From contig NZ_BMKD01000012.1 of the NCBI RefSeq assembly GCF_014643835.1, positions 25,290 to 89,289 on the forward strand: DNA of 64,000 nucleotides. The letters run 5' to 3'. This DNA is from Mucilaginibacter rubeus (GTDB taxonomy: Bacteria > Bacteroidota > Bacteroidia > Sphingobacteriales > Sphingobacteriaceae). Each line of letters starts with the position of its first letter. Within the stretch, counting starts at the first letter, position 1. This document shows, in pieces, positions 21,413 to 50,731 of the stretch. The notes below the pieces were generated by a model. It did not search any database and was not told where the DNA came from. It saw only the letters and a program-made list of their open reading frames with translations. The position numbers were made by a program, and so were the translations under genes.

Positions 21413-21494
21413 CCCCACCCAAACCCTCCCCGGAAGGAAGGGCTTTAAAATGAGATAAATAAAAATCTCCCTCCGGGGAGATTTAGAGGAGGCT
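21412..21494. repeat. GC-rich palindromic repeat, copy D
   Basis: ACCCCACCCAAACCCTCCCC at 21412-21431 closely resembles the ends of the DUF559 insertion in the helicase gene (CACCCCACCCCAACCCTCCCC). The second half contains the hairpin CTCCCTCCGGGGAG followed by GAGGAGG. It lies between the SnoaL-like gene and the Crp gene. Confidence 0.65.
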
Positions 21495-46936: not shown

Positions 46937-47608
46937 TCAATGCATATTCAAATAAGCCACTGCAGTATCATTGGCTTTATGTACTACCACGCCAACGCAA
47001 CGGCCGCTGCTATCTATTTCAAAAGAAATCCCTTTACCCGGATCGGTGTAAATCTGCACCTTGCCGCCATTGTTGGTATAGGTAGAGGTTGGCTTTAATG
47101 AATAATATTTTTGAATATCCTGTTTGGTTGAACCTACACCTACGCCCTCACCGGTTCTAAACCGCGGCGATGTTACGAGGATCTTTTGTATATGACTTAT
47201 TGATTCATCCTTACTGCCCATGTTGCGGTGCGAAAAAATCGCGGTACGGTAACGGGTAATATCATGTTTGGCAAACCAGACCATCAATGAACTGCCCATG
47301 GCCGCGTCGGAGCTATCAGGCTTGCCCAATCGCTTTATCACATTTTGCACATCATCATTTAAAATAATATGCCCGATGCTTTTGCCGGGAGTTATCAGCC
47401 AGTCGGACTGAACGGTGTTGGCCGTATTAGCATCCGATGCCATGATATGGTGGGTAGTTGTATCGTTTTTATCGAAAGGATATTGGCCTGTGGTATCCCT
47501 GGGTACGTGATTGGTATCGGCCAAAGTTGTTTCTTTTTTTGAATTGTTGCCGCAGGCCAAAAGGCAGATGGCTATCGAAATGATTATTAAGCTATTTCTG
47601 ATCGTCAT
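46937..47608 (-). CDS. Hypothetical lipoprotein
   Basis: 223 residues. The N-terminus IISIAICLLAC gives a lipobox with Cys19, followed by a long Thr/Asp/Asn-rich, probably disordered linker (20-65). A globular part begins GKSIGHIILNDDVQNVIKRLGKPD (about 75-98), which resembles the opening of small SmpA/BamE-like or copper-amine-oxidase-N-like folds, but I am not confident. The last part has alternating strands (GKVQIYTDPGKGISFEIDSSGRCVGVVVHK). It is divergent from the helicase gene. Function unknown. Confidence 0.7.
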   Translation of the reverse strand: MTIRNSLIIISIAICLLACGNNSKKETTLADTNHVPRDTTGQYPFDKNDTTTHHIMASDANTANTVQSDWLITPGKSIGHIILNDDVQNVIKRLGKPDSSDAAMGSSLMVWFAKHDITRYRTAIFSHRNMGSKDESISHIQKILVTSPRFRTGEGVGVGSTKQDIQKYYSLKPTSTYTNNGGKVQIYTDPGKGISFEIDSSGRCVGVVVHKANDTAVAYLNMH

Positions 47609-47692
47609 ATTACCATAACCAATTTAATAGTTATTTTGTTGGCTCGATTATTCGTGCAATAACCAAACAACAAAAATTTTGTTAACAGAATA

Positions 47693-50671
47693 ATGACAAG
47701 CAAAGGCCAACAGGTTATACAGCAATGGTACATGGAAAAAAACTGGGAGCAGTTCCCTTTCCAGGCCGAAATGATGGAGGCGTACCTTGGCGGCTATTCA
47801 GGCTTGTTGAATGCTCCCACGGGCAGCGGTAAAACTTTTGCCCTGTTCCTGCCTTTTCTGGCAGGGTTTATCAACACACATCCCGATACCTATAAAACCA
47901 AACAAAATAATGGCTTGCTGATGCTTTGGATAACCCCATTGCGGGCGCTTACCAACGATATCCGTAAAGCCATGCAGGAAGCCTGCGATGAGATCGGCTT
48001 ACCATGGCGCATAGCTACCCGCACAGGGGATACCCCTGCTGCCGAAAAGCAAGCCCTCAAAAAAAAGCTGCCCGAAGTACTGCTTACCACGCCGGAAAGC
48101 TTGCACCTCATGCTTGCCCAAAAGGAATATCCTAAACTGTTCAGTCAGCTGCAGGTGGTTGTAATTGATGAATGGCACGAGTTGTTGGGTACGAAGAGGG
48201 GAGTGCAGGTGGAGCTGGGTTTGTCCAGATTAAAGCACCTCACCCCAACCCTCTCCAAAGGAGAAGGAGCCGAAAAGTTAGATACTAAAGTAAAAGAAAA
48301 ATATCCCGGCTATCATACAACCGATGCTTTGAGCTGGCAGGCAAATATTGATAATGCAAAGTTTATGCGTCATCAACCTACCGAAGCTGAAAATATTTTG
48401 TGGCAATTATTGAGAGGTAAAAGGACGGGATATAAATTCAGGCGGCAACATCTTGTGTTGAATTATATACCAGATTTTATCTGCCTTGAGAAGAAATTGA
48501 TTGTTGAGGTTGATGGAGGATATCATATCAGCATAGAACAACAACATTTAGACGAAGAAAGGACAGCATATTTAAATTCACAGGGATATACCGTGCTGAG
48601 ATATACTAATGATGAAGTGTTGCAAAATCCTGAAAAGGTAATTGATTCCATTAAGCAATATTTAGAAAAAAGCTCCCTCCCCCTCGGGGAGGGTTGGGGT
48701 GGGGTGAAAATCTGGGGTATCTCCGCAACTATTGGCAATCTTGAACAGGCTGCCGAAGTTTTATTAGGAAATGATTTTCCGCCGGAACAGGTTAAAATGG
48801 TACGCGCTAACCTGGAGAAAAAGCTGGATATCCGGTCTATTATTCCACAGAATATTGAGAATTACTCCTGGGCGGGGCATATCGGTTTAAAGCTGCTGCC
48901 CGAGGTGATGGAGATAGTTGCCAAAAGTAAAACCACACTGATATTTACTAATACGCGCTCTCAATCGGAGATCTGGTACCATGCCATTTTGGATAATTAC
49001 CCCGAGTATGCGGGCATCATGGCTATGCACCATGGCTCATTGGATAACGAGCTGCGCAACTGGGTAGAAGCCGCTCTGCATGCCGAAGCCCTAAAACTGG
49101 TGGTGTGCACCTCAAGTTTGGACCTGGGGGTTGATTTTCGCCCTGTAGATACCGTTGTACAGGTTGGCAGTCCCAAAGGTGTTGCCCGTTTTATGCAGCG
49201 TGCGGGGCGAAGCGGGCACCATCCGGGAGCGACATCTCTGGCCTATTTTGTACCCACGCACTCGCTCGAGTTATTGGAGGGCGCGGCGCTGAAGGAAGCT
49301 ATTAAGGATAAGATTTTTGAAAGCCGCGATCCGATGCTGCTCACCATGGATGTGCTGATTCAGTACATGGTGACACTGGCCGTGTCTGATGGTTTTTACG
49401 CCGACGAACTTTTTAAGGAGGTTAAAACCACTTATGCCTTTGCTGATCTGAGCAGGAACGAATTTGGACAATTACTTGATTTTATTACCAGCGGCGGTAA
49501 AACACTTGCCCAGTATGATGAATTTTTAAAAGTTGAGGTTGAAAACGGATTGTATAAAGTAAATAGCCGCAGAGTAGCCATGCGCCACCGGCTGAGTATC
49601 GGTACCATTACCAGTGAATTAAGCATCCGCGTAAAATGGCTCAGCGGCGGTAGTCTGGGTACTATTGAAGAGTCCTTTGTATCGAAGTTAAAACCCGGGA
49701 ATACCTTTTGGTTTGCAGGCCGGAGTTTGGAGTTTGTACGTGTGAAGGAAATGACAGCCTACGTTAAAAAATCCAACTCAACCAAAGGGATAATCCCAAG
49801 CTGGAACGGGGGGCGGATGCCGCTGTCATCACAACTGGCGGCTGTATTCAGGCTTAAGCTGGATGAGGTGGCGCATGGCATCGAAAAAGATGTAGAGGTT
49901 AAGGCTTTGAAACCGCTTTTTGATTTGCAGCAGCAATTATCGCACTTACCGCAAAGCCATGAATTTTTGATCGAGTCATTTAAATCGAGAGAAGGGCACC
50001 ATTTGTTGTTTTATCCTTTTGAGGGGCGGTTGGTTCACGAAGGCATGGCATCGCTGCTGGCTTATCGCATCAGTAAAATAAGGCCTGCAAGTTTTTCTAT
50101 CGCTATGAATGATTACGGCTTTGAATTGCTTACCGACGACGATATCCCTATTGAAGAAGCCCTGGAAGATGCCGGTTTTTTTTCGATAGATAACCTGATA
50201 GATGATATCCAGCACAGCTTAAATGCTAATGAAATGGCCCGCCGCCGTTTCAGGGATATAGCACATATTGGAGGTTTAGTGTTTACGGGTTATCCCGGTC
50301 AGCAGGTAAAGAACAAGCATTTGCAGGCATCAACCTCATTGCTGTTTGAAGTTTTCAGCGAGTATGAGCCGGATAACTTACTGGTACGCCAGGCCTATAA
50401 TGAGGCTTTAGCCTTTCAATTAGAAGAGTTCAGGCTAAGGGCTGCTTTGCAACGGATCCAAACACAAAATATCATTTTGAAAGTGATTGAGCGACCAACA
50501 CCTTTCGCCTTCCCGATCATGGTTGACAGTCTTGGCCGGGAAAGACTGACTACCGAGACCATGGAAGAGCGCATAGCCAAAATGGCCCGCAGCTACGGAG
50601 CAGAAGGTGTTCCTGAACCTGCAGAGCGGAAAAGCAGAAAGCCGGGGATCACAAGGAAGAAGGGGTTTTAA
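47693..50671 (+). CDS. Lhr-type DExH helicase (ligase-associated family) carrying an in-frame DUF559 nuclease insertion
   Basis: 992 residues, of which 157 (182-338) are an insertion; without them 835 residues match the usual ligase-associated DEXH-box helicase size. Walker A APTGSGKT is at 41-48, motif II DEWH at 159-162, motif III SAT at 344-346 (after the insert), and motif VI RFMQRAGRSGHHPG in the second RecA domain; the C-terminal half has the Lhr winged-helix/beta-barrel region. The family unwinds nucleic acid in DNA damage response and normally neighbours an ATP-dependent ligase, exonuclease and phosphoesterase, none of which are here. The frame stays open through the insertion, so the helicase could still be functional. 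Confidence 0.93.
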   Translation: MTSKGQQVIQQWYMEKNWEQFPFQAEMMEAYLGGYSGLLNAPTGSGKTFALFLPFLAGFINTHPDTYKTKQNNGLLMLWITPLRALTNDIRKAMQEACDEIGLPWRIATRTGDTPAAEKQALKKKLPEVLLTTPESLHLMLAQKEYPKLFSQLQVVVIDEWHELLGTKRGVQVELGLSRLKHLTPTLSKGEGAEKLDTKVKEKYPGYHTTDALSWQANIDNAKFMRHQPTEAENILWQLLRGKRTGYKFRRQHLVLNYIPDFICLEKKLIVEVDGGYHISIEQQHLDEERTAYLNSQGYTVLRYTNDEVLQNPEKVIDSIKQYLEKSSLPLGEGWGGVKIWGISATIGNLEQAAEVLLGNDFPPEQVKMVRANLEKKLDIRSIIPQNIENYSWAGHIGLKLLPEVMEIVAKSKTTLIFTNTRSQSEIWYHAILDNYPEYAGIMAMHHGSLDNELRNWVEAALHAEALKLVVCTSSLDLGVDFRPVDTVVQVGSPKGVARFMQRAGRSGHHPGATSLAYFVPTHSLELLEGAALKEAIKDKIFESRDPMLLTMDVLIQYMVTLAVSDGFYADELFKEVKTTYAFADLSRNEFGQLLDFITSGGKTLAQYDEFLKVEVENGLYKVNSRRVAMRHRLSIGTITSELSIRVKWLSGGSLGTIEESFVSKLKPGNTFWFAGRSLEFVRVKEMTAYVKKSNSTKGIIPSWNGGRMPLSSQLAAVFRLKLDEVAHGIEKDVEVKALKPLFDLQQQLSHLPQSHEFLIESFKSREGHHLLFYPFEGRLVHEGMASLLAYRISKIRPASFSIAMNDYGFELLTDDDIPIEEALEDAGFFSIDNLIDDIQHSLNANEMARRRFRDIAHIGGLVFTGYPGQQVKNKHLQASTSLLFEVFSEYEPDNLLVRQAYNEALAFQLEEFRLRAALQRIQTQNIILKVIERPTPFAFPIMVDSLGRERLTTETMEERIAKMARSYGAEGVPEPAERKSRKPGITRKKGF
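48236..48271 (+). repeat. Left 36-bp terminal inverted repeat of the DUF559 insertion
   Basis: CACCTCACCCCAACCCTCTC followed by CAAAGGAGAAGGAGCC. It is the inverted partner of 48671-48706 (29/36 identical, all seven differences transitions). The inner part CTCTCCAAAGGAGA can itself form a small hairpin. Confidence 0.9.
48671..48706 (+). repeat. Right 36-bp terminal inverted repeat of the DUF559 insertion
   Basis: AGCTCCCTCCCCCTCGGGGA then GGGTTGGGGTGGGGTG. It contains the hairpin CTCCCCCTCGGGGAG. The reverse complement aligns with 48236-48271 without gaps. Confidence 0.9.
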
Positions 50672-50690
50672 ATAAATGAAAAACAAAAGA

Positions 50691-50731
50691 GGCCAGCTGT
50701 ATGCGAAGCAAACGGTGGCCCCCTTTTTTTT
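50691..50731 (+). terminator. Probable terminator of the helicase gene
   Basis: GGCCA (50691-50695) pairs with TGGCC (50716-50720), with partial inner pairing, followed by CCC and eight T. The convergent ABC-F gene ends at 50740. Confidence 0.45.

Follow-up and report, generated by a model that had tools for sequence, protein, structure and literature searches.

How does a gene for an Lhr-type helicase come to hold, between two of its helicase motifs, a complete nuclease domain flanked by inverted repeats, and what kind of element would such an insert be? The question is raised by a stretch of 64,000 nucleotides from Mucilaginibacter rubeus (RefSeq assembly GCF_014643835.1, contig NZ_BMKD01000012.1, positions 25,290 to 89,289 of the forward strand; hereafter the window, meaning the whole stretch), in which one helicase gene, of the type called ligase-associated, carries a DUF559 domain in frame. 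Comparison with relatives and with other genes hosting the same cassette leads us to give a probability of roughly 0.7 to the reading that the insert is an unspliced, in-frame homing-type selfish element with ends resembling repetitive extragenic palindromic (REP) sequences. The relevant features, with window coordinates and strand, are the following.

47693..50671, plus strand: host gene, an Lhr-type helicase of 992 amino acids including the insert (open reading frame; Pfam DEAD, Helicase_C, WH_Lhr and DEAD_assoc)
48236..48706, plus strand: in-frame inserted element of 471 nt or 157 codons, absent from 47 of 57 relatives
48236..48271, no strand: 5' terminal inverted repeat, REP-like (tail plus small hairpin), read as HLTPTLSKGEGA (repeat search)
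48302..48337, plus strand: N-terminal extension YPGYHTTDALSW (sequence comparison)
48350..48664, plus strand: DUF559 (PF04480) nuclease domain, helicase residues 220-324 (Pfam; fold like 3hrl and I-Bth0305I)
48506..48526, plus strand: active-site-like EVDGGYH (E76, D78, G79 and H82 of the 129-residue domain), invariant in 73 aligned copies
48671..48706, no strand: 3' terminal inverted repeat, REP-like, read as SSLPLGEGWGGV (repeat search)

A sequence-only reading of this DNA had placed 471 bases (157 codons) in frame between motif II (DEWH) and motif III (SAT) of the helicase. This is borne out by a reading frame that stays open over the full length of 47693-50671, with DEWHELLGTKRG...LSRLK on one side of the insert and IWGISATIG on the other. 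The complete DUF559 domain that it had recognized inside is recovered by Pfam with an E value of 1e-35 on the 157-codon insert, at 122.3 bits against the curated cut-off of 20.6 for PF04480, and the Pfam domains of the helicase flank it on both sides. The 36-bp inverted repeats, detected by the search tool at 48236-48270 and 48672-48706, differ at seven positions over 36 nt, all of them transitions as it had claimed, and their score of 40 exceeds the maximum of 22 among 50 shuffles. The in-frame DUF559 insert with inverted ends is confirmed as a real feature of this helicase gene.

An ancestral origin of the domain within the helicase can be ruled out. In a comparison set of 80 helicase loci taken from genome contigs, distant Bacteroidota helicases mostly have a short loop of 34 residues from DEWHEL to SAT and lack the domain, so that the sharing of the domain without inverted repeats by distant helicases, which the sequence-only reading had seen as fatal to its proposal, is not observed; Mucilaginibacter species carry varied inserts in the same loop. 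In the host tree (57 rows, insert left out of the alignment), DUF559 is present in ten rows, which count as nine distinct carriers because L004 and L090 are identical in host and insert, and absent from 47, which supplies the empty sites expected from related helicases. Some non-carriers are nested among carriers: L006 stands beside L004, and L040 and L041 fall among L035, L084 and L086. The carrier pattern takes six changes on this tree, five of them forced by well-supported branches, and L005, a near relative of the window gene (best segment 97% identical), is without DUF559. The nuclease-free loops have a feature of their own, in that six of 34 linkers (L010, L011, L016, L019, L036 and L037) contain other palindromic repeats clearly above shuffles, with Mucilaginibacter peptides such as SKVLSQ..LRTSD and GSSQLAVGSEQ..LPTENCQLK.

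The same cassette occurs in many other genes. Within the genus, 104 of 120 genomes have DUF559, as do 222 of 392 sampled across the phylum and, in both searches alike, two of 14 well-known control genomes; outside the genus, at least 47 DUF559 rows among the matches listed have an open frame of at least 280 amino acids (hand count). In other phyla, tblastn of plasmids gave 40 records, every one below 60% identity; the feature under the match, where annotated, is nearly always named endonuclease or DUF559 domain-containing protein. The set read here comprises 103 loci plus the window (104 rows), with sites assigned by typed motifs; 20 loci are stand-alone and the remainder lie inside longer frames, a share that is no natural frequency because long open frames weighed in the choice of 40 regions and the other loci were taken for their high scores. 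In-frame cassettes of Bacteroidota lie in RecG, MetH, LeuS, IcmF, UvrC, HsdR, HsdM, UvrD-type helicases and methylases. Hosts were named from one representative each. NCBIfam, used for ten hosts, gave RecG, MetH, LeuS, UvrC, HsdR, HisF, coproporphyrinogen oxidase (HemF), RNase HI, IcmF (fused isobutyryl-CoA mutase, with a model score below the cut-off on the partial stretch used) and HsdM (likewise below its cut-off). Pfam, used for ten more, gave UvrD-type helicases, type ISP and other methylases, N-formylglutamate amidohydrolase and peptidase M23, with DUF559-type models only in L116. The domain of HisF, HemF and RNase HI lies upstream in frame, at the N terminus only. DUF559 cassettes of this kind, for which the sequence-only reading had suggested a search, thus lie in many unrelated genes.

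LeuS has two insertion sites, of which L161 is filled at A and empty at B, and L162 the reverse. By eye, LeuS L099 and L106, which already have a DUF559 insert, also show a nuclease-free end pair at the other site, before IEVFTTR. In RecG (L166, L168 and L169), the insertion lies between DEQHRF and TATPI, a position relative to the helicase motifs similar to that in the Lhr helicase, and L151 and L152 are two UvrD-type helicases with the domain in their later part.

In the tree of DUF559 copies, in which IcmF is labelled MCM for the same sites, the copies group by host site, with one clade for the helicase copies (support 96/83) and one for RecG (100/97); some host sites need two to three changes. 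A single clade of 52 of the 104 rows (100/94) contains every helicase, RecG, MetH, LeuS and IcmF copy of the set. An N-terminal TADP-like motif, loosely defined by a pattern written post hoc with the sequences already in view, is present in 47 of 51 copies of this in-frame clade versus 6 of 52 others.

Inverted ends, as at the window's element, accompany most copies of the nuclease. A search for the end sequence CTCACCCCAACCCTCTCC with up to three mismatches gave three matches in the window, where 0.01 are expected by chance, two of them being the element ends (0 and 2 mismatches). The third, at 21414-21431, is single and weak (3 mismatches) and lies far from the helicase. A flanking inverted repeat above all 50 shuffles accompanies 83 of 104 DUF559 copies, so that such ends are by no means confined to the window, the other outcome that would have spoken against the sequence-only reading. 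A second run put 79 of 103 copies above shuffles (63 of 83 in long frames and 16 of 20 stand-alone). The median inverted-repeat score is 37, as compared to 18 for upstream and downstream flanks taken from different loci; in this mixed-locus control, 5% reach 35 and the largest score is 75, since different loci share end families. Target-site duplications were not seen by eye at the RecG and MetH junctions, where the host loops are highly variable.

The window end is open in five of six reading frames. At the single IcmF site, compared by eye, translation of the 5' end gives LTPALSKGEG or, in other species, SPQPSPKERE, and that of the 3' end LSFGEGRGEA or SPLERAGGEA. Because copies read the ends in different frames, it is the DNA of the ends that is kept and not the linker peptide, which rules out the linker peptides as a conserved, selected unit. 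The suggestion that all-transition differences between the window's arms imply selection on pairing or on the encoded linkers finds no support either: over all arms, mismatches comprise 188 transitions and 121 transversions, so that seven of seven need no special selection.

Empty, full and decayed alleles of the same site occur side by side among close relatives. Of 30 RecG loci fetched in a 150-genome search, nine are full, 20 empty, with the empty site reading LWKKN[DE][VI]PPH or near, and one (L201) is a nuclease-free remnant; the carrier pattern takes seven changes on the host tree, three of them forced. For MetH (30 loci, 247-genome search), three are full and 27 empty, and carrier L142 is 97% identical to empty L216 on each side of the site. 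IcmF (30 loci, 60-genome search) contributes 14 full alleles, including L247 and L250, whose sequences contain the domain, as well as eight empty and three decayed ones, with five not classified. The decayed alleles retain, in one case each, the 5' end with the start of the domain, a single end, and both ends without the nuclease, and all remain in frame. Homing elements pass through a cycle of invasion, decay and loss, and judged by these sequences the alleles would form the series expected of them. The many hosts and allele states agree with the earlier proposal of a selfish coding palindromic element that enters genes in frame; what that proposal lacked is homing-like, site-specific spread.

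The encoded domain points in the same direction. Twelve residues, including D65 (codon at 48473), E76, D78, H82 and D91 (codon at 48551), are invariant in the 73 aligned DUF559 copies (of 104), and we take E76, D78, H82 and D91 to be the counterparts of the letters of the EDxHD family. Profile matches in the PDB are 3hrl (E 2e-35) and 3r3p (E 1.5e-7), a 'mobile intron protein' that is the catalytic domain of the homing endonuclease I-Bth0305I. The same two structures lead the Foldseek search, as its sole matches with E <0.001 (3r3p: E 7.6e-5, probability 1.00), followed by parasite mitoribosome proteins, AbaSI and PvuRts1I, with Vsr at ranks 9 and 11 (E 0.06-0.08). Kinship with I-Bth0305I is thus seen in both fold and sequence, with the qualification that 3hrl, which is not known to home, outscores it in both. 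The model of the domain reaches a predicted local distance difference test score (pLDDT) of 83.2. That of the whole helicase is weak (pLDDT 68.6, predicted template modelling score 0.57), but residues 212-326 fold separately in it between low-confidence linkers (185-210 and 328-335), which is in keeping with, though no proof of, a DUF559 domain looped out of the helicase, as the sequence-only reading had wondered.

Spread between species at one site was assessed by comparing the divergence of insert and host, with pairs such as window-L085 denoting the window's helicase gene against that locus. For window-L085, the number of synonymous substitutions per synonymous site (dS) is 0.278 for the host, 0.134 for the 60 codons on each side and 0.014 for the insert, and along the gene the differences are minimal over the insert; window-L001 gives 0.259, 0.135 and 0.059. 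In RecG, the proportion of synonymous differences (pS) among L168, L169 and L183 is 0.22-0.30 for the host and 0.022 for the insert, and for L188-L191 0.474 and 0.151. For LeuS L099-L103, host and insert stand at 0.54 and 0.36 in pS and at 0.063 and 0.012 in the corresponding nonsynonymous proportion (pN). In some close pairs, synonymous divergence is thus 3-20 times lower in the insert than in the host gene, whereas in others it is not. Trees offer a further indication, tested without L184 (same genome as L168) and L191 (partial): the RecG insert tree pairs L185 with L188 (92/92, just below the level starred by the tool), and for this pairing, picked after the distances had been seen, the host data return a rejection (approximately unbiased test, p-AU 0.0006 for protein and 0.0009 for DNA). 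The host gene of L185 sits among empty relatives that are 95-98% identical in protein. Horizontal spread at one site is therefore observed, if in few independent cases, whereas other pairs are compatible with vertical descent.

Movement within genomes was followed in three multi-copy genomes, with three pairs at 100% identity dropped as the same place in overlapping loci. There is one clear recent case, in genome G504, and the other distinct pairs above 60% in these three genomes are at most 84% identical. In G504, duplication of a stand-alone DUF559 gene has left two copies of a 537-nt block (L275 and L278) that are 99.8% identical and lie 3.2 kb apart; the block is not in a host gene, and the repeat CAATCCTCCTGTCCTCCTTCTCCAA found at its start and again close to its end is direct, not inverted.

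A number of observations weigh against a homing-type element. The low-divergence pairs make up only about four independent clusters. Window-L085 has other low stretches at 47251-47340 and 49231-49410, and window-L001 shows no clear valley over the insert. The insert of window-L095 is not less diverged than its host (dS 0.684 against 0.420), insert/host pS ratios are 1.17-1.31 for L001-L095, L085-L095, L091-L092 and L097-L101 and 0.88 for L187-L190, making six close pairs in all in which insert divergence roughly matches or exceeds that of the host; for the majority of distant RecG pairs the ratio is 0.7-1.05. With ratios around or above 1 in so many pairs, vertical descent is common. The insert of L185, besides the post hoc choice of its pairing, is no near-copy of that of L188 (pS 0.41), so that this transfer would not be very recent. 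Inverted ends above shuffles are missing from 21 of the 104 copies, and the two window ends fold as single-stranded DNA at -3.4 and -9.1 kcal/mol, values that 44 and 14 of 200 shuffles, respectively, at least equal. Among the 120 genomes, one exact 19-nt REP end is present in 27 of the 104 with DUF559 and in 5 of the 16 without, and is thus no commoner alongside the nuclease, so that movement of the repeats need not depend on DUF559. Whether HisF, HemF and RNase HI form a joint product with their domain, which is N-terminal only, is uncertain, the model of the whole helicase is weak, and cutting and copying are inferred.

On balance, we envisage an element in which two inverted REP-like ends enclose a single Vsr/EDxHD-type endonuclease domain and which would be translated within the host protein, and probably retained in its mature form, as a separately folded domain on two flexible linkers. 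When an empty and a filled allele of the same gene meet in one cell, the nuclease would most likely cut or nick the empty one, and repair from the filled allele would copy the element, amounting to homing without intron or intein. Even essential genes may tolerate it, because it sits in permissive loops, its ends are open in five of six frames and no splicing is needed. Decay would set in with an in-frame deletion of the nuclease, after which a scar of one or both ends remains, and a site may eventually turn empty again.

Among the competing explanations, the one with the most in its favor treats the loops as hot spots for REP-like palindromes moved by another enzyme, with DUF559 as cargo and the patchiness as a product of ordinary homologous recombination between related strains. 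Palindromes clearly above shuffles in six of 34 nuclease-free helicase linkers (with a few more slightly above and the rest not), the solo ends seen by eye in LeuS, IcmF and RecG L201, the missing link between the exact REP end and DUF559 presence, and the low-divergence stretches away from the insert would all suit such a scenario. We nevertheless consider it unlikely, given that in window-L085 and in RecG L168/L169/L183 synonymous divergence of the insert itself is 10-20 times below that of the whole host gene, and that the inserted copies represent one intact nuclease lineage with 12 invariant residues and kinship to a known homing endonuclease.

That the insert is instead removed from RNA or protein by an unrecognized splicing element could be suspected, because homing endonucleases usually ride in introns or inteins (according to passages of PMC3943268) and the hosts are conserved genes, with the insert located between helicase motifs in two helicase families. 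However, no intein model appears among the matches listed for the window protein (Pfam, E up to 0.001) or for the other hosts (ten by NCBIfam, E up to 1e-10; ten by Pfam, E up to 1e-6), and a scan of window positions 47600-50700, covering the window gene only, gave no Rfam intron family at E up to 1, which speaks against a group I or II intron in this gene. Moreover, there is no stop, the frame is kept, one and the same site has ends translated in different frames, and the decayed copies remain in frame, which makes splicing highly improbable. The apparent spread of such inserts between species by homing is unusual because nothing suggests that they are ever spliced out. An adaptive fusion, in which the nuclease domain is useful to the host enzyme, would fit the several hosts that act on DNA (helicases, UvrC, RecG, UvrD-type proteins, HsdR and HsdM), but it is scarcely credible, given that LeuS, MetH, IcmF, HisF and HemF are hosts too, that presence is patchy among close species and that decayed forms occur.

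Precedents exist for individual parts of a homing-type element of this kind. Its nearest relative in logic is the ShiLan domain, a phage methylase insertion that, according to passages of PMC11855218, is homing-like, lets the host frame be read through, bears no intron or intein signature and contains an endonuclease gene, with the host presumed to work around a loop. ShiLan differs in its phage setting, its methylase host and an HNH nuclease that lies out of frame, whereas the present element has a Vsr-like nuclease fused in frame, inverted REP-like ends and many bacterial hosts. I-Bth0305I (PDB 3r3p) shares the catalytic fold and sequence similarity, but in the available passages of PMC3943268, which reviews EDxHD homing endonucleases, it is listed under group I intron homing endonucleases and has extra DNA-binding regions; the present element lacks an intron and has just a short N-terminal extension. 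Rickettsia palindromic elements and intragenic REPs, the other close precedent by analogy, are palindromes inserted in frame into genes with known functions, some of them in DNA repair; they occur in Rickettsia and other genomes and are described in passages of PMC3733652 as having no enzyme inside. The present insert, with its conserved nuclease between the ends, is not a member of that class. REP/REPIN sequences and their RAYT transposase (PMC3116915 and PMC3686654) similarly link short palindromes, often in inverted pairs, to an enzyme gene, but here the enzyme is a DUF559/Vsr-type nuclease rather than a tyrosine transposase, and it lies in the coding frame. Vsr and VsrA of Caulobacter are of the DUF559/Vsr type as well, although passages of PMC12907096 present them as predicted mismatch-repair proteins with their own genes, not as inserts. 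Among the papers found that mention DUF559, no title or abstract opening concerns such inserts, and no description of such an element was found among the titles, abstract openings and passages seen in full-text searches, which largely exclude subscription journals and preprints.

As a broader and still tentative proposal, to which we give somewhat less than even odds, these inserts may belong to a phylum-wide, splicing-free class of homing elements that combines a Vsr-type nuclease with REP-like inverted repeats and forms a permanent extra domain in essential proteins (LeuS, MetH, RecG and the Lhr helicase), uses its stop-poor ends to enter new genes, spreads between species at each site by homing and, on decay, leaves the in-frame palindromic scars of Bacteroidota proteins. 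The usual picture is that essential genes tolerate a homing nuclease only if it rides in an intron or intein or occupies an intergenic spot. For the present element, flexible linkers alone seem to be enough, and this in housekeeping genes throughout the phylum. The element would be an enzyme-carrying counterpart to the Rickettsia palindromic elements and would account for puzzling additional domains and low-complexity linkers of Bacteroidota enzymes, and its empty and full alleles may serve as ready-made pairs for the study of homing.

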